Position numbers and translations under genes: made by a program. From assembly GCA_014654035.1 (NCBI GenBank), contig JACWDQ010000011.1, positions 1-34,748 on the forward strand: a DNA stretch of 34,748 nucleotides, read 5' to 3'. This stretch comes from Pelagibacterales bacterium SAG-MED19. Lineage in GTDB: Bacteria; Pseudomonadota; Alphaproteobacteria; Pelagibacterales; Pelagibacteraceae. Positions 12,743 through 33,859 of this stretch are shown here, piece after piece (the first letter of the stretch is position 1; each line of letters starts with the position of its first letter). The notes beneath the pieces were generated by a model. The model did not search any database and was not told the DNA's origin. It saw nothing but the letters and a program-made list of their open reading frames with translations.

Positions 12743-13827
12743 TATCTTAGTTTCAATGTGGCCAAACCAATCATTGCTAAAATTATTGAAATTATCCAAA
12801 ATCTAATAACAACTGTAGACTCGGGCCAACCTTTTTTTTCAAAATGATGGTGTATTGGAGCCATTTTAAATATCCTTTTTCCAGTTAATTTAAATGAAAT
12901 TACTTGTACCATTACTGACAATGCTTCAAGAACAAACAATCCTCCAGTTATAGCTAAAACTATTTCGTGTTTGGTAATAATTCCAACCGCTCCTAAGGAG
13001 CCTCCTAATGAAAGAGAACCTGTGTCTCCCATAAAAATTTTAGCAGGTGGTGCGTTAAACCATAAAAAACCTAGACAAGCACCAATTATTGAACCACAAA
13101 ATATAGCTATCTCTCCAGTCCCCTCGATATATAGAATTTGAAGATAATCAGAAAAAACAATATTGCCTGTAACGTAACTGATAAATGCAAAACATCCAGC
13201 AACCAAAATTACTGGTACTGTGGCTAAACCATCCAGACCATCTGTTAAATTTACAGCATTTGAAGAACCTACAATGACAAAAATTGAGAAAGGGATAAAA
13301 AACCATCCTAAATTGATTATTAAATTTTTAAAGAATGGAAAATAAAGATTTTTGAATTCGTTGTACTCAACAAAAAAAGTTAAAACTAATAAGCCAACAG
13401 TAGCAAGAAGTATTTGCATAATTATTTTAAACTTAGATGAAATACCAAAAGAACTACTATTTCTAATCTTTTTGTAATCATCATATGCACCAAGTAGTCC
13501 AAATGATGAAACGATGAATAAACAAAATAATATATATATATTTGTTAAGTCAGCCCATAATAAAACAGAAATAATTAGTCCTATTAATATAATTACGCCC
13601 CCCATTGTTGGCGTTCCTATTTTTTTAACAATATGATCAGATGGACCATCTTCTCTTATAGGATTAAAAATTTTTTTATTTGAAAATAATCTTATAAATG
13701 GTTCACCAATTAAAAGAACTATTAACAATGATGTAAAAAAAGCTAATCCAGTTCTAAAAGTAATATATTTAAAAACATTTAAAAAAGTAAAAGTCTCAAC
13801 ATAGTTGAGTAATAATTCATATAGCAT
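12742..13827 (-). CDS. mraY: Phospho-N-acetylmuramoyl-pentapeptide transferase MraY
   Basis: Integral membrane enzyme that transfers phospho-MurNAc-pentapeptide to undecaprenyl phosphate, giving lipid I. The 361-aa polytopic protein has the family's acidic and His motifs: GAYDDYKKI (paired Asp), [22 protein letters not shown] and [15 protein letters not shown]. Length is standard. The ATG overlaps the murEF stop by 11 nt. Confidence 0.97.
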
Positions 13828-16669
13828 TAGAATTTCTTTGTTTTAAATTATTTGTTATTTTATAAAGACCTGTAGAATTAGATCCTTTAATCATTAAGTA
13901 ATCATTATTATTCAAATTATTTTTTATCAAATCAATTATCCTAAATTTATCGTTCAACACTTTTCCTTTTTTATTTTCATTTAAACCATCAAAAGTGTTT
14001 TTAATGTATTTTCCTACAACATAAACTTGATTTATCTTCGTTTTATTGATGACTTTACTGATTAATTTATGTTGTTTAATTGAATGTTTTCCTAATTCGA
14101 GCATATCACCTAGAATCAAATATTTTTTAGATTTTTTTGATTTAATTTTTTCATAATTTTCTATTGCAGTTTTTAATGAAAGTGGATTTGAATTATAAGA
14201 CTCATCTACTAAAAAAAAATTTTTATTTTTAAGTTTTATTTTTGAAATATCTCCTCTGCCATTTGGAGTCTTTATATTTAAGAAAATATTTTTTTTTATT
14301 TTTTTTATATCTGAGTATAAGTTAATTACAGCTACAGTAGCTAGTATATTATATAAGTTACTTTTATTATCATTATTTGAATAGAAAGAAATAGTTGAAC
14401 TACCAAGTTTAATAAATAGCTCATACATATTTTTAATTTTTTTTATCTTAATCAATTTTATCATTGAAGATTTATTTTTGATACCAAAAGATATAACTTT
14501 TAATTTTTTCTTATGTGCTAAATTTTTATGATAAAAATAAAAATTATCATCCATATTTAGGATGATAATACCATTTTCTTTTATATTGTTCATTATCTCT
14601 GCTTTAGCATCTGCTATCTGGTTTATATTTTTAAAATTCTTTGAGTGAGCATAGCTAATATTTGTTATAATTCCTAAATCAGGTTTTATAATTTTTGTTA
14701 AATTATCAATCTCACCTTTTTTATCCATACCTACCTCTAAAACGCCAAATTGATCATCCTGTTTTAAATTTAATAGGCTTAGAGGCACTCCATATTTGTT
14801 ATTATAAGATTTTGGAGAGAAGGTTGTTTTTGATATTTTTTTTAGAGTAAGTCCAATCATTTCCTTTAAAGTAGTTTTTCCACAACTTCCAGTAATTGAG
14901 ATTATTTTTGCGTTGATATTTTGTCTAAAAATAGATGAGCATTCAGTTAAAAAACGCAATGTATTTTCAACCTTTATTTGTTTAAAAGTAGAAAAATTAT
15001 TATTTATTCGATTAACAATTGCTAAACTTGAATTTTTTTTTAAAGCTTCTGAAACAAATTTATTTCCATCAATCTTTTCTCCTTTAATTGCAAAAAAAAC
15101 ATCATTTTTCTTAATCGTTTTTGAATTAATTGAAACTTCTTTAATGATTAATTTTCTAGATAATTTTGAATTAGATTTTTCTTTAATGATATTTAATTTT
15201 AAATCATTTGATAAAGATTTATTTTTTAATTTTATTGATTTTAAAATTTCTTGTTTATCAGAAAAAAACAATTTCCTTTTTCCATAATCTTGAATCTTTT
15301 CATGACCTTTACCGGCTACTAACAGTAAATCTCCCGTATTAAGATTGCTGATTGCTTCTTGAATTGCTTTTTTTCTACTTGGAATTTCATAAATTTTAGT
15401 TTTATTTATTCCTTTTTTAATATCTTTTCTGATATCAGATGGATTTTCATTTCTTGGATTGTCATCAGTTAGATAAATTTTATCAGAGTACTTTTGTGCA
15501 ATCTTTCCCATAATTGGTCTTTTTTTAAAATCTCTATTACCACCACAACCAAAAACTAAATTAATTTTACTAAATTGAAATTGTTCTTTAAGGTTTGACA
15601 AAACTAATTCAAGAGCTTCGGGCGTGTGAGCGTAATCTAAGATAACCGTACTATTATTTTTAATTTTTCCAATAATTTCAAAGCGACCTTCTACTGATTT
15701 GAGCTTATGAACAACATTAATTATTTTATTAAATTGAATACCAGTATTATAGGCAGCTAAAATTGCCATCAAAACATTCTTAATCTGAATCTTACCTATT
15801 AAATTTAATTCAATACAGTATGAATTATTACCAAACCTTATATCTAGTATTTGTTTTTGCCCTACAAATTTATGGGAAATTAATTCTATACCTTTTTTTT
15901 TATCAAAAATTAAATTTATATTTAATTTTTTTTTTAAAGCAATTTTTTCTATTTCTTTTCTTTGTGGAATATTTGCATCAGTAATAATGTATTTGTTTTT
16001 TTTAATCAATTTATCAAATAAATATAATTTTGATTTTAAATAATTTTTCATATTTTTATGATAATCCAAATGATCATGAGACAAATTAGAAAAAATTCCT
16101 ACATCAAATAATAATCCGTCCAATCTATTTTGATGAAGTCCATGGCTAGATGCTTCCATAACAATATATTCTATTTTTTTTTTAATAAGATCTTTTAATA
16201 TAGAGCTCAATTTTATTGGATCTAATGTTGTGTTTGTTATATCTTTTTTTTTATCTTTATACTTGATACCTATAGTTCCAATGGAGGCAACTTTTTTTAA
16301 ATTATATTTTAAAATTTGATAATAAAAATCTGCTATAGACGATTTACCATTAGTGCCTGTTACAGCAATTAATTTTTTTGGTTTTTTGTGTAAAAGTTTA
16401 TAAGAAACTTTTGCCAACAATTTTCTAACATTAGGAAAATTTAAGTATAATATATTCTCTGCTTTTTTTTTAATTTTTTTTTCTGATATTATTACTTTAG
16501 CGCCGTTTTTAATGGCATCATCAATATAGTTATTACCATCGAGCTTACTTCCTTTAATCGCAAAAAATATATGATCTTTTCTAACTTTTGAACTATTAAA
16601 AGAAATTCCTGCAAAAAATACTTTACTAAATTTTTTATTCAAGTTTGGAATATAATCTTTGAGCTGCAT
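13817..16669 (-). CDS. Fused MurE-MurF ligase (950 aa)
   Basis: One open frame with two complete Mur ligases. MurE (about 1-480): N-terminal domain [22 protein letters not shown]-loop TGTNGKSS (104-111), [24 protein letters not shown], and the DNPR motif (403-406, in DDNPRNENP) that marks meso-diaminopimelate-adding MurE, then [11 protein letters not shown]. MurF (about 500-950): a second [20 protein letters not shown]-type N-domain, P-loop [11 protein letters not shown] (593-603), [33 protein letters not shown]. The ~20-residue junction is Lys/Ser-rich with no stop or start signal. The product should add mDAP then D-Ala-D-Ala to UDP-MurNAc-dipeptide. No catalytic motif is missing. It overlaps mraY by 11 nt; ftsI ends 3 nt upstream. 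Confidence 0.96.
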
Positions 16670-16672
16670 TTC

Positions 16673-18361
16673 TTAATTAGCTTCACTATATTTTGTGGCT
16701 AAAATAGGCCCGATTTTTTCGACAATTTGACCAGTAACCTCAACAGCAGTCCAGCCAGCAGTATTATATGGTGTGCCTTTAAACTTAATATTAGATCCAT
16801 CTCTATAATGATAAATATAGTCTTTATTGGTTTTTGGCTCATCAAGCATTACAGCTAAAACAAACTTTGGTTTGGATGTAGGAAATATAGATATAAAAGT
16901 ATTTATTTTTTTTTTTGAGTATCCGCCTATTGAACTTTTTTGAGCGGTTCCTGTTTTACCTCCAATCTCATATCCAGGAACATTAGCTAAAGATGCTGTA
17001 CCCTCTTTTGTAGATACAATTTTTCTTAAAATAGGTAAAATTTTTTTAGATACATCTTCATTTAAAATTTTTTCTTTTTTTAACTTTTTTTTTTCTTTAA
17101 TTAAACTTGGAGTAATATTGAATCCTCCATTAGCTATAATTGAATATGCTTTGGCTAATTGGAGTAATGTTGTTGTAATACCATGTCCAAAAGAGGCTGT
17201 TGCGAGTGGGCATTTTCCCCAATTAAATTTTATTGGTTCACCCACTTCTTCAATATCAAAATTGGTTTTTTCAAGAACATCTATTTTTGACAAGAACTTT
17301 TTAAATTTTTCTTCTCCAATTTTTTGTCCTATTCTTACAGAACCAATATTTCCTGATCTTATTAAAATTTGTTCAGCAGTTAAATTTGAAGGTATTTCCA
17401 TATCGTATTCTCTAATTGGAAATCCTGCACAAGTAAGTGTTTTTGGTAAATCAATAAATTCAGTATGTGGTTCAATAAGTTTTTCATGTAATGCTGCGGC
17501 TAAAGTAAATGTTTTGAAAACTGAACCAAATTCATAAACTCCTTTAGTTGCTCTATTTATCAAGTTTAAATCATTTATTTTTTCTCTTCTATTAGGATCA
17601 AAATCAGGTAAAGAAACGAGAGATAATATTTCTCCGTTATTCACATCCATTAAAATAGCAGCACTTCCTAAGGTTTTAAAAATTTGATTAAATTTAACTA
17701 GTTCATTTCTAATTAAAAATTGAACATCTTGATCTAAAGTTGATTGAATAGGTTTTTGCCTATTTTTTAAATTCTCATCTAATGATTTTTCTAAACCTGA
17801 AATACCATTATTATCATTATCTATTTGACCGATAATATGGCTAAAAAGATTCTTTTGAGGATATATTCTTATTAATTTTTCCTCTGGTTGAATAGATTTA
17901 TCACCTAATTGCATTATTTTTTCATAATTTTCCTCTGATATTTTTTTTTCAAAATAAAAAAAATTCTTATTATCTAATTTCAGTTTAATTTGTTCATAAT
18001 TTTTATTAGGAAAAATATATTTTAAATTAAGAATAAGTTTTTTTTTATCAATTACTTTTTTAGTGCTTATACCAATATCTATTGAACTTACTGTTTTTAC
18101 CAAATATTTTCCATTTCTATCAACAATATCTGCTCGGTAAAGTTTATTTGATGGTTGTTTGATATTTTTATTAATTTCATTTTCCACTTTTCTTGATCCA
18201 AGATGTATTAGATGAATTGAATAAATTAATGAAACGACAAAGAAAACAAAAAATATAAAAGCTACTCTATTAAATATAACATTTAAATTTGATCTATTTT
18301 TTTTAAAAGAAAAATCATGTCGATGATCTTCTAAAATAATTTTTGTGTTTCTGTCACTCAT
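16673..18361 (-). CDS. ftsI: Septal penicillin-binding protein FtsI (PBP3)
   Basis: Monofunctional class B transpeptidase that crosslinks septal peptidoglycan with FtsW. The 562-aa protein has a cytoplasmic tail, one membrane anchor (about 33-50, FIFFVFFVVSLIYSI), the PBP dimerisation domain starting YRADIVDRNGKYL, and the transpeptidase triad: SVFK (nucleophile Ser280), SGN (336-338) and KTGTAQ (469-474). The order ftsL-ftsI-murE is canonical. Length is normal. Confidence 0.96.
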   Translation of the reverse strand: MSDRNTKIILEDHRHDFSFKKNRSNLNVIFNRVAFIFFVFFVVSLIYSIHLIHLGSRKVENEINKNIKQPSNKLYRADIVDRNGKYLVKTVSSIDIGISTKKVIDKKKLILNLKYIFPNKNYEQIKLKLDNKNFFYFEKKISEENYEKIMQLGDKSIQPEEKLIRIYPQKNLFSHIIGQIDNDNNGISGLEKSLDENLKNRQKPIQSTLDQDVQFLIRNELVKFNQIFKTLGSAAILMDVNNGEILSLVSLPDFDPNRREKINDLNLINRATKGVYEFGSVFKTFTLAAALHEKLIEPHTEFIDLPKTLTCAGFPIREYDMEIPSNLTAEQILIRSGNIGSVRIGQKIGEEKFKKFLSKIDVLEKTNFDIEEVGEPIKFNWGKCPLATASFGHGITTTLLQLAKAYSIIANGGFNITPSLIKEKKKLKKEKILNEDVSKKILPILRKIVSTKEGTASLANVPGYEIGGKTGTAQKSSIGGYSKKKINTFISIFPTSKPKFVLAVMLDEPKTNKDYIYHYRDGSNIKFKGTPYNTAGWTAVEVTGQIVEKIGPILATKYSEAN

Positions 18362-18384
18362 TAATTAATCTAAGTTTTTTAGTC

Positions 18385-18657
18385 TTAAAAATTACTGATT
18401 TTTTTTATTTTCTTTATTTCTTGAATATCCTTTTTTATTAATTCATTATCGAAATATAAATTTTGAAATTTAAGCAATTTTTCTGCAGAACTCAGGTATT
18501 CATATTCTAATTTGATACTTTCAAATTCCTTTTTTAAACCTCTTATATTTTCGCTTATAATATAGATTTCATCATCAATTCGTTTTGTTGAATTTTTAAT
18601 AAAAGCTGTAAAAAAAATTAAGGATATTATTAAAAAGATAATTGAAATTTTCTTCAT
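18385..18657 (-). CDS. ftsL: Cell division protein FtsL
   Basis: Small bitopic divisome protein of the FtsQLB subcomplex. The 90-aa product has one N-terminal membrane segment (about 4-20, [17 protein letters not shown]), then a coiled-coil stretch of charged heptads ([20 protein letters not shown]), ending with [14 protein letters not shown], the conserved 'e..yLssp.rl..la' FtsL motif. The call rests on size, topology, that motif and the position between rsmH and ftsI. The start overlaps the rsmH stop by 4 nt (ATGA). Confidence 0.88.
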
Positions 18658-19664
18658 AATTTATTTCCAAAATTCTCAATTTCTATGAGATGTTCAAATT
18701 TTTTTAGAATATCTGTTTCAAAATTATAAATATTATCTTTTTTAATTAAATATCTAAGTTTAGCAGACCTTGATGAAATATTTTCTTTTAATTCTTTTTT
18801 TGATGGAGTTATTGGTTTTTTTTCCAACATCTTAAATAATGTGTCTGGTTGATTAATTTTTGGGACGTAACGAGAAATACTTTTGTTTTCTGAAAGACTT
18901 TTAAAAAAATATTTGACTATCCTATCTTCTAAAGAATGAAAAGTAACAACTACTAAAATTCCGTCTTTTTTTAAAACTTTTGAGGCAGCTAATAATCCAT
19001 TAATTAACTCCGTTATCTCTTTATTTACAAATATTCTTAAAGCTTGAAAAACTTTTGTGGCACTATGCGTTTTAAAATTTTTTTTTCTTTTTGCTTTTTC
19101 TACAATTCTTACTAGGCTCTGAGTATCTATTTCTTTTTTTTTTCTTTCTTGCACTATTTGTTTTACAATTTTTTTTGCTTCTCTTTCTTCTCCAAAAAAT
19201 TTAAATATTTTCTCTAATTCTATTTCTTCTAATTCATTTATTGCTTCTTTTGCCGAAAATTCATTAAAACCTAATTTCATATTCAAATCTCCATCAGAAT
19301 TAAATGATAAACCTTTTTTAGGATCTTTAATTTGATTAGTAGAATATCCTAAGTCAAAAATTATTCCCCTAATATTTTTATCTTTAAGTTTAAGATTATC
19401 TAATTGGCTAAATTTTTTATTTTTGAAAAAAAATCTATTTTGAAATTCATCTAAAATTTGATCAGCTTTTTTTTTTGTTTCTATATCCCTATCTAAAGCA
19501 ATTACATTTGTATTTTTATAACTTAGAATTTTTTTTGTATATCCGCCTTGTCCAAATGTGCAGTCAATAAATGTGCCACCATATTGAGGGGTGATAATGC
19601 TAATAACTTCTTTTAGCAGTACCGGATAATGTTTTAAAGTATCCGATACCATGGTGGCTTTCAT
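18654..19664 (-). CDS. rsmH: 16S rRNA (cytosine1402-N4)-methyltransferase RsmH (MraW)
   Basis: SAM-dependent methyltransferase for 16S rRNA C1402. The 336-aa protein shows the N-terminal [12 protein letters not shown] motif [38 protein letters not shown] and [13 protein letters not shown], all RsmH signatures. An alternative ATG 12 nt downstream (19652) would remove four residues (MKAT); nothing separates them clearly. It follows ftsZ by 18 nt and overlaps ftsL by 4 nt. Confidence 0.97.
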
Positions 19665-24377: not shown

Positions 24378-24454
24378 TGGTGGGCCCGCCAGGACTCGAA
24401 CCTGGGACCAATACATTATGAGTGTACTGCTCTAACCAACTGAGCTACAGGCCC
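24378..24454 (-). tRNA. tRNA with CAT anticodon (Ile2 or elongator Met)
   Basis: 77-nt cloverleaf on the minus strand including encoded CCA: acceptor GGGCCTG/CGGGCCC, D-arm AGCTCAGTTGGTTAGAGC, anticodon loop CTCATAA (anticodon at 24420-24418), T-arm CCAGGTTCGAGTCCTGG. CAT serves initiator Met, elongator Met and lysidine-modified Ile2. The acceptor has a normal G1-C72 pair, so not initiator. The GGGCC acceptor resembles bacterial tRNA-Ile, so I favour tRNA-Ile(CAT), but Met cannot be excluded by eye. It separates the conserved genes from the accessory region. Confidence 0.95.
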
Positions 24455-24585
24455 TTCTAAATAGATTAGGTATTACACCAATTTTAAAATTCATACAAGT
24501 TAACTTTACAAACGATAGATTGTATTTTTCTAAAATTTTAGACACAAACTTTGCATTCGTTGGTAAATCCGTTGGTAAAAATTTT

Positions 24586-26673
24586 TTATAAACTTTTAAG
24601 GGTTTTTTCAGAAATTCCATTTATTCTTAATTTCTTATGTTTTAAAATTTCTTTCGCAACCTTTAAGAAAGAGGTATTTTTTAATTCTTCTGCTTTTTTG
24701 AAGTCATAACCATAGATCCAAATATCTTTTAATTTCTTTAATTTTTTGAATGTATTAAAATCAGTATAACCATTCACTAAACGACTTATTACACCACCCT
24801 CTTGATTATTCTTAGTAAAGTAATTGTAATATCTTAATTTTTCAAATGTTTTAATTTTTTCAAAATTAGGGAAATCGTCTACTTGTAAAATCCTATGCAT
24901 AAAATATAGGTCATCATAGCTTCCAGCATATCCTTTATGATGAACATGCTCGTCTTTAGGCTTATCATCCTTTACTTCTTTGGGAACAACTATTTCAAAA
25001 TCTTTAAGTTTTTTAGGATATAGATTTTTTGGAAATCCATCACTTGGAGGAGATCTTAAATAACTATCAGCATTTAAAGTAAATCTTTCTAGGTTCGGTA
25101 ACTTATATAAGTTTTTGAAAAAAGACGTAGCTGTTTTCCAGTCAATGATACAGGTATCTAAATGTAAATGTTTCAGTTTCTTTAGTTTTGATAGTGGTGT
25201 CCAATCTTTGATATACTTCATATTGGCTAAGACCAATTGTTCAATATCTTTAAGCTTTTCGATTTCTTTTAAACTTTTTGAATCCCTTAGATCTATTTTA
25301 TCAATCTGAGCGTACTTAAGTTTTTTATCAACTGCATTTCTTAAATATGGACTTTCCTTATTTAACTTATTCGCTATTAATTTTCCTTTTTCACTTTTGT
25401 TTAAATAACAACCTTTAATACCTTCAACTACGATTTTGACATATGCATTTTCATAACCATCAGAATCTTTAGTATCATAACAATGTAAATATACTGGGTA
25501 AGAACCTTTGTTCACTGGAAAAATTATTTTAGTTAAAGAAAAATCGATATCATTTTGAAATTTATAACCATCGAATAGTTCTGATACTCCTGCTGATAAT
25601 ATATCGGTTGATATTTCCAACTTCTTGTCACTGATTTCAATCTTTTTTGTTTTTTTTCTAAATTTTGGTAAATCTAATTCTTGGGGCTCAATATCTTTAA
25701 TTATACCAATAATGAAATCTTCAAATTGCTTTTTTCTAATTTTAAAACCTTCTTTAAAATTTTCTTTGAACAAAATTTTTGACTGTTTTTTTAGTATTTG
25801 AATAGCTTTTGGTAGTCGACTAGATATATATTCTCCCGAAAGTTTTGCATTATCTTTTATTTTTAAATTAGTCTCCCAACGCTTATAATGTTCATTTTCA
25901 TCTTTGATTTCCAAATAATCCTCAAAAATATATTTAGTAGGATAACAATTTTCATCTAATTGATGGTTAAATAATTCAGTGTAAGAATAATTAATTGGCT
26001 CCTGATGAGGTTTTAATTCTTTGTGTATAACTGATGAACTAAAATTAGATGACTCAGGTTTATTTATAAGACCATACGAAAATTTAACACTAAATATTGG
26101 TATAGAGTTTTGAAAAACTCCATCCTTTCTAAAATAATCTAATTTAATAATTTCATTTAAATCCCCATTCTCATCTAATGTATCATTATCAACACCTAAT
26201 AAAGATCTTAAAGGTCCACCAAAATCTCCAACCGCTATCAAACCTGATTTAGTATTTAGATCAAATAACTTAATTCTATTTTCTTTTAACTTTCCAAAGA
26301 ATTGATCGTTATAGTCTTCTTTATCCCACCACCAGGATAAATAACTTTGCCTATCTTTAGGGTGCTGAGCATATTCTGCAACTGTAGCATCAGCGAATAT
26401 TTTTCTTATTCTATTTTTAGCATCTACACCAATATAGACAGAATAACCGCCATCTGCTCCATTTCCAAAAGATATAGAGTTATATTTTGATGCATCATTT
26501 TTTTTGAAATCATCAATGAATTCTTTTACAGAGCCACCGTATCCCCATCCAGTATCAAAATCATTTGTTAATCGCTCACATAAATCTCCAACTGTAACAG
26601 TTGCAGCATCAACAGCATTCATTTCCAACAAATAAACATCTGTTATTGGAAATGGATCTCTAAGTTTTTTCAT
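24586..26673 (-). CDS. Leucine-rich-repeat protein with repeated GxYxVY modules (695 aa, unknown function)
   Basis: I do not recognise this gene. The N-terminal ~160 residues include ISFGNGADGGYSVYIG (67-82) and the middle has FPVNKGSYPVYLHCYD (385-400); both resemble the 'gDGsYpVy' motif of DUF4241-like beta domains, suggesting two related modules. From about 450 to 690 are irregular leucine-rich repeats (IDLRDSKSLKEIEKLKDIEQ, LVLANMKYIKDWTPLSKLKK, LKHLHLDTC, LPNLERFTLNADS). No signal peptide or membrane span; probably cytosolic. It is the last gene of the overlapping operon, 7 nt after the 146-aa gene. LRRs usually bind protein partners; a sensor or inhibitor role would be inference only. 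Confidence 0.8.
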   Translation of the reverse strand: MKKLRDPFPITDVYLLEMNAVDAATVTVGDLCERLTNDFDTGWGYGGSVKEFIDDFKKNDASKYNSISFGNGADGGYSVYIGVDAKNRIRKIFADATVAEYAQHPKDRQSYLSWWWDKEDYNDQFFGKLKENRIKLFDLNTKSGLIAVGDFGGPLRSLLGVDNDTLDENGDLNEIIKLDYFRKDGVFQNSIPIFSVKFSYGLINKPESSNFSSSVIHKELKPHQEPINYSYTELFNHQLDENCYPTKYIFEDYLEIKDENEHYKRWETNLKIKDNAKLSGEYISSRLPKAIQILKKQSKILFKENFKEGFKIRKKQFEDFIIGIIKDIEPQELDLPKFRKKTKKIEISDKKLEISTDILSAGVSELFDGYKFQNDIDFSLTKIIFPVNKGSYPVYLHCYDTKDSDGYENAYVKIVVEGIKGCYLNKSEKGKLIANKLNKESPYLRNAVDKKLKYAQIDKIDLRDSKSLKEIEKLKDIEQLVLANMKYIKDWTPLSKLKKLKHLHLDTCIIDWKTATSFFKNLYKLPNLERFTLNADSYLRSPPSDGFPKNLYPKKLKDFEIVVPKEVKDDKPKDEHVHHKGYAGSYDDLYFMHRILQVDDFPNFEKIKTFEKLRYYNYFTKNNQEGGVISRLVNGYTDFNTFKKLKKLKDIWIYGYDFKKAEELKNTSFLKVAKEILKHKKLRINGISEKTLKSL

Positions 26674-26680
26674 ATTTAAT

Positions 26681-27121
26681 TTACTCTAATTCAGTTAACC
26701 ATTTAGGCCAAGACCTTGAATTCAAATCTCTATCAAGTTTAAATTCATTGATTATCTTTCTTAAAATCTCAGATTTTGAATATCCATCTTTATATAGATC
26801 TTTTGCTCTTTTGATTTTAGCATCTTTAAGTTTTTGAACTTCTGGACTAAATTGAACTAAATTGGATTGATCTCCACCAGAATTCCCCAACGCTCTTTTA
26901 TTTCCTTGCATAGATTTAGCTCTTTTTTCCTCAAGAATTTTTGTAAGCTTTTTTCTTTTCCTTAATGCTTCCTCAGCTAAAAATTTACTATTATAAATTT
27001 GTAACCCTCTAAACTCCATTGGGATATTGCTATTTTTAGTTTTGGGTGTAGAAAATAAAATTTTATATTTTCCATTTGGATTATTTTTATCAACAGGTCT
27101 GATTTTATTATGATTGCTCAT
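26681..27121 (-). CDS. Hypothetical protein, possible C-terminal helix-turn-helix (146 aa)
   Basis: Family not recognised. The protein is highly basic. The N-terminal part is short strands (GKYKILFSTPKT, EFRGLQIYN), then a charged helix (AEEALRKRKKLTKILEEKRA), a low-complexity Gly/Asn/Gln stretch, and a C-terminal segment (AKDLYKDGYSKSEILRKIIN) whose 'LY.dGySk.eIl..i' pattern resembles helix-turn-helix recognition regions of recombinase or terminase-small-subunit proteins, ending SWPKWLTELE. The ATG overlaps the nuclease stop by 4 nt (ATGA), so the two are probably coupled. Nucleic-acid binding is plausible from charge and pattern only. Confidence 0.7.
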   Translation of the reverse strand: MSNHNKIRPVDKNNPNGKYKILFSTPKTKNSNIPMEFRGLQIYNSKFLAEEALRKRKKLTKILEEKRAKSMQGNKRALGNSGGDQSNLVQFSPEVQKLKDAKIKRAKDLYKDGYSKSEILRKIINEFKLDRDLNSRSWPKWLTELE

Positions 27122-28014
27122 AATTTATCAATTATAGACCTCTGTCTTGCATACGCACAATTTTTACAAAGTTTATTTGATTCGGGTATATTATAAGAAT
27201 TAAAAACATCTATCATTTCTTGTATTTCATTTTCAAGATAATCATCCTTTACTTTAGTATGAATAAGCTTCGACTGAAATAAAAGTTTATTATCAAATTT
27301 ATCCTCTAAACCTCTTGCGTTCACTACAAGTAGATAAGCATCATTAGAAATTGTTTCTTTAAAATTTTGTTGTTTTAATAAATAAAAGTAAAAATCTAAT
27401 TGTGTTTGATAGCCTGTTTTAAAATCTCCATCCCAATATGTTTCTTGACTCACTTCTTTTTCATTAGCTTGCGATTTATAATCAACTAGGATTAAGTAAT
27501 TATTTTTTGTATCTAGCCAAATATCATCAACTGAGCCATATAAAATAAAATTCGTTTTTTTAAACCTTGCTTGTAGTCCATGATAATTTGATCTCCAAGC
27601 CTCCATTTTTTCATAAGGTTTTTTAGAATTAGAGGAAACAATAGGATCTCCATAAATATTTATAGCGGTCTCTTCATTTTTATATGGGATGATATTATCA
27701 AGTTTGTTCTCAATTAAAATTTGATGTGACTTTTGATCTTTACGACACAAGTCAAATTCTTTTTTTAATAGCTTGTCAGTAGTGCTATTCATAGTAAATT
27801 GAGGGGTGCCTGGAGCAACAAACCCCTTTTTTCTAATAAGATAAAAACACCTTTTGCATTTCTTAAATTCATCAAAAGCTGATCGACTTAGCCAAATATC
27901 ATCGGTATTTCCATATTTAGAAAACGTGATTTCATCTTTAATTCCTAGAGCAACTTTTTGCTGACCCTTTCTTTTACCTCTTTTGTGAACTCCAGGTTTT
28001 TCTAAATCTATCAT
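27118..28014 (-). CDS. Cas4/RecB-like PD-(D/E)XK nuclease with putative iron-sulfur cysteines
   Basis: 298-aa nuclease of the PD-(D/E)XK superfamily (PDDEXK_1, Cas4-like). Visible active-site pattern: GSVDDIW (Asp163/164), LILVDYKSQ (Asp178, Lys180), and YQTQLDFY (Gln205, RecB-type QxxxY). Two CxxC pairs, FKKCKRCFY (C53, C56) and KLCKNCAYAR (C283, C286), bracket the domain as in Fe-S cluster exonucleases such as Cas4 and AddB. The N-terminal LSRSAFDEFKKCKRCFYL and the TPQFTMNSTTDKLLKKEFD block match a known family of stand-alone nucleases. No Cas1, Cas2 or CRISPR is seen. It overlaps neighbours by 4 nt on both sides. Nuclease fold confident; biological role unknown. Confidence 0.88.
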   Translation of the reverse strand: MIDLEKPGVHKRGKRKGQQKVALGIKDEITFSKYGNTDDIWLSRSAFDEFKKCKRCFYLIRKKGFVAPGTPQFTMNSTTDKLLKKEFDLCRKDQKSHQILIENKLDNIIPYKNEETAINIYGDPIVSSNSKKPYEKMEAWRSNYHGLQARFKKTNFILYGSVDDIWLDTKNNYLILVDYKSQANEKEVSQETYWDGDFKTGYQTQLDFYFYLLKQQNFKETISNDAYLLVVNARGLEDKFDNKLLFQSKLIHTKVKDDYLENEIQEMIDVFNSYNIPESNKLCKNCAYARQRSIIDKL

Positions 28015-28292
28015 TTGTTTCTAAATTTATTTAGTTGCTTATTTAAAACTTTCATCTCAATTTCATTTTTTTTATAATCATGTCTTATCCTTACATACCT
28101 AACTAATCTTAATAGATTGTATGGTAAAAAATAAACATTTAAAACAAGTTTTAAGAATGGTCTTGTTTTATAAAACTCTTCATCAGCTTGTTTTGTAATT
28201 TCCTTGTTAGCTAAATATATGTCAATATCATGTTTCCAGCTTTGACAGTAAGTTAGACGATCTTTAAGTTTATTTTTAAAATAGTTACTCAT
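28011..28292 (-). CDS. Small protein with amphipathic/hydrophobic segment (93 aa)
   Basis: Not recognised. An upstream in-frame ATG (28322) exists, but the ATG at 28292 is preferred: it has GAGG 8 nt upstream and forms an ATGA overlap with the stop of the 53-aa gene, like every other junction in this operon. The product has a charged N-terminus, a hydrophobic stretch (FLKLVLNVYFLPYNLLRLV) that could be a membrane helix or a buried amphipathic helix, and a basic coiled-coil-like end (IEMKVLNKQLNKFRNK). It overlaps the nuclease start by 4 nt. Confidence 0.7.
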   Translation of the reverse strand: MSNYFKNKLKDRLTYCQSWKHDIDIYLANKEITKQADEEFYKTRPFLKLVLNVYFLPYNLLRLVRYVRIRHDYKKNEIEMKVLNKQLNKFRNK

Positions 28293-28450
28293 TTTACATA
28301 CCTCGCAATTTGTTTGTAACATTGTGGTTTAACTGAAGATTTACCTATGATTTTTACTTCTTCATTTTTAAAATAGTAAATCCAATAATAGTGTTGATCG
28401 TTTTCTTCATCAAAAACTTCTTCAATTCTTATTTCTGTAATTTTATCCAT
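28289..28450 (-). CDS. Very small acidic/aromatic protein (53 aa)
   Basis: Short frame from ATG at 28450 to TGA at 28291-28289, encoding a 53-aa protein starting MDKITEIRIEEVFDEENDQH, then YYWIYYFKNEEVKIIG, and ending CYKQIARYVK. The predicted pattern is beta strands rich in Tyr and Glu. Its ATG overlaps the previous stop by 1 nt (TAATG) and its stop overlaps the next ATG (ATGA). These junctions fill an otherwise unexplained ~130-nt gap and make it very likely real. No family recognised. Confidence 0.72.
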   Translation of the reverse strand: MDKITEIRIEEVFDEENDQHYYWIYYFKNEEVKIIGKSSVKPQCYKQIARYVK

Positions 28451-28719
28451 TAGTGAAGAACCCTTTCTTTTTGAATTAATTCAAAATAAATACGATAAAA
28501 AGCTAGTCGTGATTTTCTCATGAAATCATCCCACTCTTTGTCAGTATTAGTGTTTAACCAGGGAAGTTCAGATTCTTTTAGATTAAATAATTCAATAAAA
28601 ACTTTATCTATTGAACTGAGTAACTTACCGATATCTTTCTCACCCTGAACTGCTATTAAATTAATAAGCTTTTCATGATCTGTGAGCGATTTTATCTTTC
28701 TTGATTTTTTGACCTTCAT
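28450..28719 (-). CDS. Small hypothetical protein, first gene of nuclease-LRR operon (89 aa)
   Basis: Not recognised. The start at 28719 is chosen because AGAGAGG lies 5 nt upstream; an in-frame TTG at 28746 lacks such a site. The protein is basic at the start (MKVKKSRKIKSL) and helical after (HEKLINLIAVQGEKDIGKLL), with a C-terminal helix DDFMRKSRLAFYRIYFELIQ. No signal peptide. It heads the six-gene overlapping operon running down to 24586. Confidence 0.7.
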   Translation of the reverse strand: MKVKKSRKIKSLTDHEKLINLIAVQGEKDIGKLLSSIDKVFIELFNLKESELPWLNTNTDKEWDDFMRKSRLAFYRIYFELIQKERVLH

Positions 28720-28763: not shown

Positions 28764-28967
28764 ATTTTACTGACCATATATATTTTACCATTTAGAACTT
28801 TCGTTCTTAGTTGTTAGTTTTAGGTAAAAAGATTTATAGATTGTGTACACCAATTCCAATTAAGTCTCAGATAAAACTATAAGTTTTACCTCTTAAAAGG
28901 TCGGCAATGCACTGAAGGCAGGAAATATACACTGGTCAGTAAAATTTATGTATATATCTTGCCTTCA
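28764..28967. repeat. Cluster of inverted repeats in a 400-bp non-coding region
   Basis: The gene-free stretch 28720-29122 holds: a perfect 12-bp inverted repeat ATTTTACTGACC (28764-28775) / GGTCAGTAAAAT (28934-28945); TTTTACC (28782-28788) / GGTAAAA (28823-28829) enclosing AGAAC-TTTC-GTTCT; the palindrome AAAACTATAAGTTTT (28873-28887); and a 19-bp near-perfect stem (17 of 19 pairs) 28913-28931 / 28949-28967 whose loop contains the second GGTCAGTAAAAT arm. The arms could form a pseudoknotted RNA or mark a 182-bp MITE-like element with 12-bp terminal inverted repeats. No target-site duplication or transposase is seen. Confidence 0.75.
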
Positions 28968-30871: not shown

Positions 30872-33859
30872 TTATTCTGAATAAATTGAATTTACCATGT
30901 ACTCTATGGATGCTTTTTCTCCCATTTTAGAAACTGGAAAACTTAATTGAAAACCTATCAAGGGATGTTTTGTTAAATGATTAGGATCAATTTTTTTAAT
31001 GTCATGATGTCCCTCAATACTATTTCCCTTACTATCTTTGTAACCTTTGTATTTTTTATAAGATGATAAATTAGTAACACCTAAAATTGGGTATAAATTT
31101 AATAAACCACGTTTTTCAGTTCTATGATATCGTGCAAGCTCTCTTCTAGCTTGCATTATAGTTTTTTCATCAGTAACTGGGTCATGAGTTTTTGTAAAGT
31201 TTTGAAGACTTTTTTTATATTCCTCTATCTCAGAGTCTTCTAACCCTATAAGCTCATCCCTTGGTTGAGTTATTACTTTAAGACTAATTTTTGAATCATT
31301 TTTTTGATTTGAAGGTGTTCTTAATAAAAGCTCGACTTTATATTTTTCGGCAAAAATTTCACTCATTTTAGAAGAACCGCTCCCATGTAAGCAAATTGTC
31401 CAATTAGTCAGTTCTTCAAAAGAATTTAAATTTTTTATATAATCCACATATTCTTTGCAGCCTAAGCTTCTTGAGTCTTCGAACTTTTTATAGTTCTTTA
31501 AAAATGTAATCACATTTTTAGGATCAACATTTTTCCATATGTAAGAATTTTTCCATTTTTGAAGACCATTATCAAACTCTCCAGAAATAGTAGGTTTGTT
31601 TATATTCAAAAGAAATTTATTTGCTGCCTCGAAATTAGATTTAATTACTTCATTATTTTTTTCAAAAGTAATTATTTCCTCTACCCCTCTTGAAAATGAA
31701 GTTCTTTCTTTACGTGCACTCCTCATTTTAGTTTTAGATGTAATAATTAAATTTGGATTAGTTCTTACTTTTAGACCAAATTCTAATGGAGTTGCTCCCT
31801 GTTGGGCCATAATTCTAAATGAATTTCGCATTTCCTCAGTTGCAACTGAAATGTGGAAAAACCACTTAATCACGTTATCTGTAGTATATAATCTACAAAG
31901 ATCTTCGTATCCCATTCTATACCCGAACCACCTACCCATCTGCATTAACGTGTCATACATTGGCATTTTTGCTGAACGAAGAAAGTAACTTATGCTTAAT
32001 CCCTCTAATGTTATTCCTCTTGATAATTTATCTCCACCAATTATGATTGTATGTAAGCCAAAATCATTTTCGTTAACAAAATTGTCATAATCAAGGGTAT
32101 CGTCACTCTTTCCATTTAAAACTTTAATATTTCGACATACTTCATTCACAATAAATTTTAGACTATACTTGTGATCTAGTAGATCTTGCCATGTTGGCAT
32201 TTTTTCTTCAGTTTTATCTTTATGAATATAAAAATTCTTATGCCAAATTTCCTCAAATTTAGAAATAGTTTCATCATGAAGATAATGACCAGCTTGCATA
32301 CGAGCTCGTAAAGTATCCATAAAATCACTAACTTGTTTGAAAACTATATGTTGAACGTCTTGGAATTTGCTAACATGAATTAACATTGATTTTCCATCTT
32401 CAACGTAGCCCCTGTAGTTTCTACAAGCTGAAGTGAGAATAAAAGACATTATCGCTTCTCTTAAAGAAGGTGGAATAGGAACTTCATCTTCTTTTTTATA
32501 CTCATATTTAGGCACATGATAACGGTTATGACGAGGGGGCATCCATCCTTCAGCGCAATCAGGATCATCATGATATAAAGAATTATCTTTGACAATATTA
32601 AAAAAATAATTGTCTTCTATTTCTCTATCCTCAACAACATCACCATCAACTTTTTCTATATTAAATATTTTTTCTAAACCACTATGATTGGACGGAATTG
32701 GCAAATCAATAATATAATCCTTAGGAAAAAGATCTAAACCTTCTTCTTTAGTTTTTTTTTCGTGATGGATAAAAATATTAGCAAATGGTGTTGCTGTGTA
32801 ACCAATATAAACTTTTTTTTCAAATATATTTAAAATTTGTCTAATTCGTGAATTGATCGTTTTAGGATCATATTCAGGATCAAATTCACCTTTTTCATCT
32901 AATTTTTGTTCACCTGTATCTACAGATCCATTATCTACCTCATCATCGATAACCAATATTGGTCTATCTTTAATAAAGGAATTATAATCTCCATGGTGTC
33001 CTTTAATTCTAAATGGTTTGGGATCAACACTCACTCCAGAAACTGAAGGAGCATTTAAAAAATATTTTATGACACTTTCTAAAATACTTTTATTTTTTTT
33101 AACAACGAATACAGTTGGTTCATCTGTATGAATATTCATGAAGTGTTCTGCAGCTTTAAATTTAAAATCACCATTAATTTTACTATTAGTTGCTGAATGA
33201 ATAGGTTTTAGATTAAGCATCATTCTTTTTCTTGCTAACGGTCCCTTTAAATCTCTTACTCCATTTTTCATAAATGCAGTATCATAGTTAAGCAAACCTT
33301 CATCGACTCTTAATTGCGTTTGTTGCCTTAAATTTTTATTTAACCCTGAAAGAATGATAATCTTCTTATAACCAGCATCTATAGCCTTATTCAAAAATCC
33401 AATGAAGTTAGAAGTTTTTCCAGATTGGACACTTCCAACTATCAAGCCTCTTGAATCCCATGCTCCCTCTCTATTTGGGTCTTCAATATTTCTCATCATT
33501 ATATCAGTAGTTTTATCAAGAGCTGATACTGCATCGGGTGGAAATTGTTTGTCGTTTTTTAAATATTCTCTATATGTTTCCCAATAAGGTCTATCTCTAT
33601 TATTATCATACCAATCAATGTGATCATTATTGCTTTTAATAATTGCAGAACTAGAGCTTTTGACAGTAATATTTTCAAATAGTTGCAAAATTAATTTATC
33701 TTTATAAGGAAAATCTTTTGATATACCTAAAAATTCTAGAGCCTTTTCAACAGAATATTTTATGCGTTCAATTGATTTATCTTCTGGTCTCTCACTTTCG
33801 ATATTTAAAAGAGCTGCATTAAAAAGTTTTCTATACGAAGTTTCTTTTAAATCAGCCAT
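30872..33859 (-). CDS. Z1-domain superfamily II ATPase/helicase-like protein (995 aa)
   Basis: Z1-domain protein, a family found in restriction-type and phage-defence loci. Helicase-like motifs: Walker A GLIVGSVQSGKTSNF (about 138-152), motif II VIDDEVDN (303-310), TAT motif YIGYTATPFAN (351-361), motif V IIGGDKLSRGITLEGL (606-621) and motif VI QMGRWFGYR (640-648), then the conserved EEMRNSFRIMAQQGATPLEF of the Z1 region. The N-terminus (about 80-110, WYDNNRDRPYWETYREYL) is typical of the family. The product should use ATP to act on DNA; direct nuclease activity is not evident. It is divergent from an HNH endonuclease gene 111 bp away. Confidence 0.92.
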   Translation of the reverse strand: MADLKETSYRKLFNAALLNIESERPEDKSIERIKYSVEKALEFLGISKDFPYKDKLILQLFENITVKSSSSAIIKSNNDHIDWYDNNRDRPYWETYREYLKNDKQFPPDAVSALDKTTDIMMRNIEDPNREGAWDSRGLIVGSVQSGKTSNFIGFLNKAIDAGYKKIIILSGLNKNLRQQTQLRVDEGLLNYDTAFMKNGVRDLKGPLARKRMMLNLKPIHSATNSKINGDFKFKAAEHFMNIHTDEPTVFVVKKNKSILESVIKYFLNAPSVSGVSVDPKPFRIKGHHGDYNSFIKDRPILVIDDEVDNGSVDTGEQKLDEKGEFDPEYDPKTINSRIRQILNIFEKKVYIGYTATPFANIFIHHEKKTKEEGLDLFPKDYIIDLPIPSNHSGLEKIFNIEKVDGDVVEDREIEDNYFFNIVKDNSLYHDDPDCAEGWMPPRHNRYHVPKYEYKKEDEVPIPPSLREAIMSFILTSACRNYRGYVEDGKSMLIHVSKFQDVQHIVFKQVSDFMDTLRARMQAGHYLHDETISKFEEIWHKNFYIHKDKTEEKMPTWQDLLDHKYSLKFIVNEVCRNIKVLNGKSDDTLDYDNFVNENDFGLHTIIIGGDKLSRGITLEGLSISYFLRSAKMPMYDTLMQMGRWFGYRMGYEDLCRLYTTDNVIKWFFHISVATEEMRNSFRIMAQQGATPLEFGLKVRTNPNLIITSKTKMRSARKERTSFSRGVEEIITFEKNNEVIKSNFEAANKFLLNINKPTISGEFDNGLQKWKNSYIWKNVDPKNVITFLKNYKKFEDSRSLGCKEYVDYIKNLNSFEELTNWTICLHGSGSSKMSEIFAEKYKVELLLRTPSNQKNDSKISLKVITQPRDELIGLEDSEIEEYKKSLQNFTKTHDPVTDEKTIMQARRELARYHRTEKRGLLNLYPILGVTNLSSYKKYKGYKDSKGNSIEGHHDIKKIDPNHLTKHPLIGFQLSFPVSKMGEKASIEYMVNSIYSE

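Follow-up and report, generated by a model that had tools for sequence, protein, structure and literature searches.

Cas4-family nucleases encoded outside CRISPR loci (solo-Cas4) have no assigned function; according to the available part of the source, they are over-represented in environmental microbes with small genomes and are also present in viruses (PMC5704561). Another point of reference is Shield, which the accessible portion of its description presents as a lineage-restricted defence system in which an RmuC (PD-(D/E)XK-like) effector is combined with variable partners (PMC10270631). The locus analysed here is a six-gene operon (positions 24586 to 28719, minus strand) of Pelagibacterales bacterium SAG-MED19, encoding a Cas4-like nuclease (NUC), a terminal protein of a leucine-rich repeat (LRR) family and four small proteins (P1, P2, P3 and P5). 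It lies beside a tRNA-Met gene on contig JACWDQ010000011.1; the window, i.e. the whole stretch of 34,748 nucleotides that was analysed, is this entire contig (34.7 kb), which belongs to a 1.01-Mb assembly with 50 contigs. Tycheposons are one example of islands integrated at tRNA genes. On balance we favour, with little more than even confidence, the reading that the operon represents one form of a mobile, modular and most likely anti-phage cassette of the Pelagibacteraceae, located at tRNA-Met and other hotspots. That the cassette architecture is modular and horizontally exchanged is, taken by itself, almost certain.

All six open reading frames (ORFs) lie on the minus strand, with overlaps of 1, 4, 4 and 4 nt followed by a 7-nt gap. 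The ORF coordinates were re-derived and agreed with a first-pass annotation of the sequence in the ORFs, their lengths, overlaps and gap, and the junctions are all as described there for one operon-like unit. The position between a tRNA gene and a Z1/HNH locus was likewise recovered, with core genes of an ordinary kind (by eye) to the left of tRNA-Met and Z1 and the HNH ORF to the right of the operon. The features are as follows:

28450–28719, minus: P1, 89 aa (98 aa from an alternative TTG start)
28289–28450, minus: P2, 53 aa, family unassigned, conserved beside P1/P3
28011–28292, minus: P3, 93-aa small protein (103 aa from an alternative ATG start), anchor gene of the cassette
27118–28014, minus: NUC, 298 aa, predicted Cas4-like PD-(D/E)XK nuclease
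26681–27121, minus: P5, 146 aa, basic
24586–26673, minus: LRR-family protein, 695 aa, with an N-terminal part (about 1–430) and a predicted LRR fold (431–695)
28917–28963, minus: conserved leader hairpin upstream of P1
28044–29056, minus: front mosaic block (leader, P1, P2, nearly all of P3)
24378–27121, minus: back mosaic block (P5, LRR gene, tRNA-Met)
24378–24454, minus: tRNA-Met, its 5' 43 nt being 24412–24454
30872–33859, minus: neighbouring Z1 (MzaC-like) protein, 995 aa
33971–34747, plus: neighbouring HNH nuclease ORF, open and cut by the contig end

Judging from nucleotide comparison with related loci (numbered with the prefix L, and genomes with G), the operon is a mosaic of the front and back blocks around a differing nuclease. 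The front block is 91.5–92.2% identical to L124 and L129, where the next gene encodes a NUC relative with 34–35% protein identity to the window NUC, followed by DUF2130. The back block, whose edge coincides with the P5 start codon, matches L063 at 92.4% identity across 2744 bp; the nuclease of L063 is PDX3, not the NUC type of the window. Blocks that the window shares with L040, L059 and L060 stop at 26680–26681, seven to eight bases before the LRR start, and for the window NUC gene itself the best alignable stretch comprised 159 of 897 bases at 70% identity (L045). The flanking core genes (names by eye) share 64–66% (mlaA), 73% (mlaC) and 70% (an amidase gene) identity with L060 and L063. Because the cassette parts are far more alike than the adjoining chromosome, the comparison indicates that they were recently transferred, with joints lying at or within 33 bp of gene boundaries.

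An alignment scan for the LRR protein in 84,980 species genomes yielded 17 loci, and together with the window, L040, L041 and L137 a total of 21 distinct LRR-family loci was obtained, second copies from one genome being dropped. The scan used seed patterns, so that absence of the LRR family elsewhere is not proven by it; every one of the 17 named relatives is labelled Pelagibacteraceae or Candidatus Pelagibacter, on which ground the host is treated as SAR11-type. Nineteen loci with more than 1 kb of upstream sequence were informative (L064 and L069, with < 350 bp, were left out), and in 17 of these a nuclease was present in the same-strand gene run. Fifteen were identified by script, while L063 and L075 were added on the order PDX3, P3, P5, where P3 is backed by profile matches and an open frame; the simple ORF picker missed P3 in these two as well as in L132, L140 and L150, among others. 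The ratio overstates the number of independent events because L066, L067, L068 and L072 are close relatives (their LRR proteins are 87–100% identical to the copy in L042, which is the genome of L068).

Eight nuclease settings of the terminal gene family were found in the Pelagibacteraceae, three of them further PD-(D/E)XK types: the Cas4-like NUC (window, L137), a RecB-DEDD-helicase protein (L040, L062), ExoI plus RmuC, the array also holding another PDDEXK_1 gene (L041, L066, L067, L068, L072), two other PDDEXK_1 types (PDX4 in L059; PDX3 in L061, L063 and L075), RmuC (L070, L073), DUF2130 (L071, and also in L137) and PDDEXK_3 (L074). Types were assigned by running Pfam on reference members and by best BLASTP match (E ≤ 1e-3) for the rest, and these labels, like the gene labels P5, NRNP and s195, are our own; PDX4 was once labelled NUC at 23% identity, and certain types may be remotely related members of a single superfamily. 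The family thus displays a recurring P1–P3 front (the order P1-P2-P3 is repeated in many mapped loci, more than expected by chance), a nuclease slot with exchangeable occupants, likewise exchangeable small genes after it (P5, NRNP, s195) and an LRR-family gene in some copies. The combination of a nuclease with an LRR protein noted at first pass therefore stood in general, whereas a fixed six-gene composition did not, as the nuclease and small genes are exchanged.

Association was also assessed at the level of genomes. The P3 profile matched 63 of 399 genus genomes at E ≤ 0.001, and 60 were kept after removal of three with a partial match only (~40 of 96 positions). Z1 scored over the cut-off in 25 of the 399, and both genes were present in 12 genomes where ~4 were expected (12/60 P3-positive against 13/339 other genomes; Fisher p 5e-5); the two lie within 10 kb on one contig in 10 of the 12, on different contigs in G184 and G291, and 3.7 kb apart in the window. 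Of 58 P3 loci, 30 had a nuclease (either strand) no more than 100 bp away from P3 and a further 16 had one inside 2 kb, compared with 4 of 315 control genes located > 5 kb from P3.

The nuclease itself is assigned to PDDEXK_1 (E 1.1e-11, over the Pfam cut-off), with a marginal match to Pfam Cas_Cas4 (23.2 bits; cut-off 22.7) and a score of 14.2 against a cut-off of 65 for NCBIfam cas4; in PADLOC only Cas4 models matched (best E 2.7e-6). Eleven residues (C53, C56, E86, D163, D164, D178, K180, Q205, Y209, C283, C286) are invariant in both of two 14-sequence alignments that overlap in the window sequence alone, and these include the PD-(D/E)XK catalytic residues (E86, D163/D164, D178-x-K180, Q205, Y209) as expected of Cas4. 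The four cysteines, candidate ligands of the Fe-S cluster proposed at first pass, are spaced 2+2 (C53-x2-C56, C283-x2-C286), while the Cas4 pattern is 1+3. The structure model (mean predicted local distance difference test score, pLDDT, 76) has a Cas4-like PD-(D/E)XK fold, with many tied match rows that include type I-C Cas4 (Z 11.2, root-mean-square deviation (rmsd) 4.4, 187 residues aligned), AdnA (Z 11.0, rmsd 4.0, 191 aligned), SSO0001 Cas4 (Z 10.8, rmsd 3.9, 163 aligned) and ACE1 (Z 9.9, rmsd 4.2, 191 aligned), and further matches to RecE and MGME1; a profile search of the PDB gave no convincing sequence relative. The reading as a Cas4-like nuclease, made from motifs at first pass, is upheld. 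Nine window proteins other than NUC (the rest of the operon, Z1, HNH and a further two neighbours) gave no cas match in PADLOC, and a CRISPR adaptation context (cas1/cas2) was accordingly not found among the window proteins scanned.

An alignment search of IMG/VR recovered NUC relatives on 16 contigs (a single-sequence scan of viral_contigs gave none), and on 10 of these a gene matching PADLOC adjoined the relative or lay two genes away on the same strand. The neighbours are a CBASS cyclase with a two-transmembrane effector (L080), Gabija (L086), Ppl-like genes (L082, L085), an SNF2 helicase two genes up (L084), HerA (L087), a type II methyltransferase and restriction endonuclease with ThsB (L088) and type IIG/I-like genes, two genes down in L077 and next in L078, together with a type III-like gene (L081). 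Uncounted were L076 (one neighbour scanned, no PADLOC match), L079 and L090, where an SNF2-like gene (E 4e-12) and a C5 methyltransferase, respectively, lie on the strand opposite to the NUC relative, and L083, L089 and L091, in which no neighbour was scanned in PADLOC. Terminase-like neighbours were seen by eye in L083, L090 and L091, and true phages seem to carry the NUC family too; in the phage collection none was found, and among plasmids there was one record (Flagellatimonas, 27% identity), whose neighbours are mostly hypothetical genes, one helicase-related gene being close by. Taken together, NUC relatives look as if they were a general add-on nuclease of defence operons. The defence module proposed at first pass gains from this company and from the P3–Z1 linkage, as a role deduced from gene context; on these grounds an anti-phage role is likely, and joint action of the nuclease and the LRR protein is plausible.

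Several observations weigh against the modular anti-phage cassette. Apart from the window, L137 is the sole locus of the 21 to combine NUC (35% identical) with an LRR-family protein, and there P1-P2-P3-NUC-DUF2130-NRNP precede a 423-aa protein that has the N-terminal part and lacks the repeats; their co-occurrence outside the window, the lack of which the first-pass annotation would have counted against itself, therefore recurs, though narrowly and owing to L137. In L060 and L065 the LRR gene occurs by itself, G182 has P3 and LRR on separate contigs, and 12 of the 58 P3 loci have no nuclease inside 2 kb (six of these are arrays with RmuC 4.4–5 kb off). The P3–Z1 linkage may reflect only shared hotspots, and among the ten IMG/VR neighbours, L078 was counted by its likeness to L077 without being scanned and the L081 match is weak (E 7e-10). 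Finally, NUC matched in 15 genomes of genus g5 (247-genome sample of the order); in the six that were mapped it lies between gltX (by eye) and one constant downstream gene, and five of them have it there by itself, in the manner of a stable chromosomal gene. In the sixth (L045), the gltX interval holds NUC with a methyltransferase, an MzaD-like gene, Z1 and P2.

The solitary LRR genes invite the explanation that nuclease and LRR protein are stacked, independent cargo, i.e. separate defence or fitness genes in one tRNA hotspot, with overlaps resulting from compact SAR11 genomes and co-expression. The copies in L060 and L065, which lie alone between tRNA-Met and a 43-bp repeat, agree with this, as do the presence of the LRR family in only 7 of the 60 P3-positive genomes and a small island (L151, 1.6 kb) with a P1-like ribbon-helix-helix ORF, P3 and P5 but no labelled nuclease. 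We nevertheless consider it unlikely, in view of the nuclease found in the run at 17 of 19 informative loci, the higher frequency of LRR in P3-positive genomes (7/60 against 4/160 sampled from the 339 P3-negative genomes, p 0.011; 6/59 without the window's genome, p 0.025) and the rarity of PDDEXK_1 genes in these genomes. One of the seven positive genomes (G413) lacks the repeats, while of the four P3-negative matches two are on contigs of 3.2 and 4.5 kb with < 350 bp upstream (G343 and G400, represented by L069 and L064), one starts at the contig start (G281) and one matches the repeat part only (G346). Ten genomes gave six PDDEXK_1 matches in five genomes: the sole match lies inside the LRR gene array in G000, G015 and G026 (~3 kb from LRR in G026), both matches of G024 are inside a P3 array, and G013 has one. 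G046 had no match at the threshold, yet its LRR array contains a 227-aa relative of the PDDEXK_1 gene of L041. An obligate pair of NUC and LRR was rejected, G182, G015, G026 and G046 having LRR without a NUC match in the 247-genome sample; the last three carry other nucleases, and the LRR locus of G182 has none.

That NUC serves in DNA repair or recombination, as a solo-Cas4 or AddB-like enzyme, and at times ends up in islands is quite improbable. The lone copy in the gltX interval of five of six mapped g5 genomes and the fold matches to AdnA, RecE and MGME1 point in this direction, and the evolution of solo-Cas4 is mostly vertical according to the part of the source available (PMC5704561). 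A repair function is, however, difficult to reconcile with NUC matches in only 10 genomes of the window's genus in the order sample, with relatives that adjoin CBASS, Gabija and Ppl-like genes, and with other nucleases at the same operon position behind a near-identical front or before a near-identical back. A prophage replication module, which would likewise have spoken against a defence locus, was not supported for the window: the LRR protein had no relatives in viral_contigs, phages or plasmids and NUC none in phages, and the only weighty PHROG match of the operon was that of NUC to phrog_31195 (unknown function). The HNH neighbour also matches PHROGs.

As for the terminal protein, the model (mean pLDDT 69.5, low in the N-terminal part) displays an LRR solenoid fold at residues 431–695, comparable with 4tzh (Z 10.7, rmsd 4.0, 175 aligned) and SHOC2 (9btp; Z 10.8, rmsd 3.9, 177 aligned). 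The LRR assignment thus agrees with the predicted fold, though all sequence matches stay below the Pfam cut-offs (LRR_4, E 4.6e-4), and the N-terminal part bears a weak resemblance to DUF4241 (E 0.011 in the window, 0.0055 in L137). A profile search of the PDB gave generic LRR chains at E 0.017 and worse and no convincing sequence relative, and outside SAR11 a thin sample of 398 phylum genomes gave only a 71-position generic match besides the window. A long form of ~1430–1456 aa is present in L042, L064, L065, L067, L068, L070, L071 and L072. In L063 (10001–12086) the gene is broken into ORFs of 305 and 344 aa, each > 91% identical to the window copy, and intact copies are present elsewhere.

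None of P1, P2, P3 and P5 matched a Pfam family over the cut-off, and with the LRR protein included no PADLOC 2023 family was matched at E ≤ 1, in keeping with the initial impression that no named system has this composition. P1 relatives in L059, L061 and L137 have an extra N-terminal stretch that is ribbon-helix-helix-like (motif by eye, no database match), and this stretch is present alone in L063 and L132. P5 is 91–93% identical at the protein level in L061, L063, L075 and L132, which have another nuclease type, and its suggested helix-turn-helix character was not upheld (HTH_7, E 0.079, under the cut-off). A relation of P3 to Cas4 was discarded, the PDB profile match (E 0.73 across 37 positions) being judged chance. 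The leader hairpin (z −4.06) is a candidate operator, RNA leader or recombination site; its exact pattern occurred as a single copy in 6 of 36 P3-positive and 0 of 36 P3-negative genomes searched, and each of the six copies precedes a P1- or P3-type operon (G000, G258, G378, G384, G464, G534). Three main-stem pairs are altered on both sides, and the RNAalifold covariation term is slightly unfavourable (+0.67). Two Rfam matches of the leader, far under the gathering scores, were judged chance.

The hypervariability attributed to the tRNA site was borne out. The 5' 43 bp of tRNA-Met are repeated in direct orientation at the far island end in L060, L063, L065, L075, L124 and L151, with 95–100% identity in the second copy (40 of 43 bp in L065); in L075 and L124 the retrieved stretch stops short of tRNA-Met and the repeat was paired by its position beside rpoD. 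The window has a single copy, the contig ending at 34748. The smallest units are 2.4 kb with LRR alone (L060) and the 1.6 kb of L151. Very unlikely is a selfish addiction module, in which a P1-like regulator and a toxic nuclease would maintain the island without benefit to the host: the 43-bp repeats, the high cassette identity between divergent hosts and the ribbon-helix-helix-like P1 relatives would suit it, but a set of six genes that includes one for a large LRR protein goes beyond a toxin-antitoxin pair, the Z1 linkage argues against it, and no integrase or mobilisation gene was noticed by eye in the mapped ORFs (no dedicated search was made, and the island is incomplete in the window).

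Under the favoured reading of a modular anti-phage cassette, the nuclease would be the effector that degrades invading DNA and P3 a partner able to accept different nucleases, while P1, in the light of its ribbon-helix-helix-like relatives, may regulate the operon. The repeats of the terminal protein could recognise some phage component or anchor the nuclease at its target, and a nuclease swap on a kept chassis would change the phages that are stopped or evade phage inhibitors. More tentatively, and with rather less than even confidence, the cassette may be a previously undescribed SAR11 defence system, whose recurring chassis, made up of P1-P2-P3, the small genes that follow the nuclease and a terminal LRR-type protein, undergoes whole-gene nuclease swaps across families by horizontal exchange at gene boundaries, providing one sensor architecture with many DNA-destroying effectors. 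SAR11 are abundant ocean bacteria, and the cassette resembles a novel type of virus-defence locus. Should it prove to act in defence, even streamlined genomes would hold a modular arsenal, and a natural nuclease-swap series on one chassis would be available for studying a sensor with different effectors. With its mosaic break points, the cassette lends itself directly to testing gene-level recombination in the ocean.

Other arrays were observed during mapping. A second type (L055, L057, L126, L128, L142, L149, L162 and others, several beside trx-folC) contains F17, often WGR-like, P3, a 530-aa GHKL/metallopeptidase-like protein (by eye) and RmuC, and also occurs with ExoI, TM0106-like and NUC genes. 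Near hisG, P3 is found in arrays (L166, L168–L172) together with ORFs that by eye resemble a GHKL ATPase (no Pfam match) and Vsr, and with a C5-methyltransferase-like gene. A single pilin-like family, recognised by eye from its prepilin motif, accounts for eleven ORFs near a NUC relative in L054 (6908–18970), and nine of these form a tandem row at 14393–18970. In the window, a 950-aa ORF at 13817–16669 resembles a MurE-MurF fusion in a cell-division cluster (by eye).

No account of this cassette was found in a literature search that reached few subscription papers. The nearest described systems compare as follows. NUC is unlike solo-Cas4 in the cysteine spacing and NCBIfam score given above and in its residence in a swappable cassette. 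It resembles solo-Cas4 and mobile-element Cas4, as far as the available part of the source describes them, in being a PD-(D/E)XK nuclease with four conserved cysteines in non-CRISPR loci (PMC5704561). ACE1 (PDB 9iac/9iab), an Argonaute-associated Cas4-family nuclease, offers a precedent for a partner of a defence protein (Cas4 associated with prokaryotic Argonaute is treated in PMC6299218) and matches NUC in fold, though sequence identity is ~10% and no Argonaute is present among the ten window proteins scanned. A likeness to MZA (MzaC/MzaD) lies in Z1 near P3 in the window and in the row of MzaD-like, Z1, NUC and P2 genes in L045, while the window Z1 scores 694.7 against an equivalog cut-off of 1500 and none of the six operon proteins matched Mza models, Z1 being a neighbour. 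Like tycheposons, the islands of six relatives are bounded by a duplicated tRNA fragment, but here it is the 5' half of tRNA-Met that is duplicated, only one copy lies in the window, whose contig ends first, and, again without a dedicated search, no integrase was noticed. Shield is similar in that RmuC is one nuclease option of the SAR11 cassettes, though none of the six operon proteins matched RmuC, the domain of the core protein ShdA. As far as the available part of its description goes (PMC10270631), the nuclease ShdA is constant in Shield and its partners vary, whereas in the SAR11 cassettes it is the nuclease that varies.

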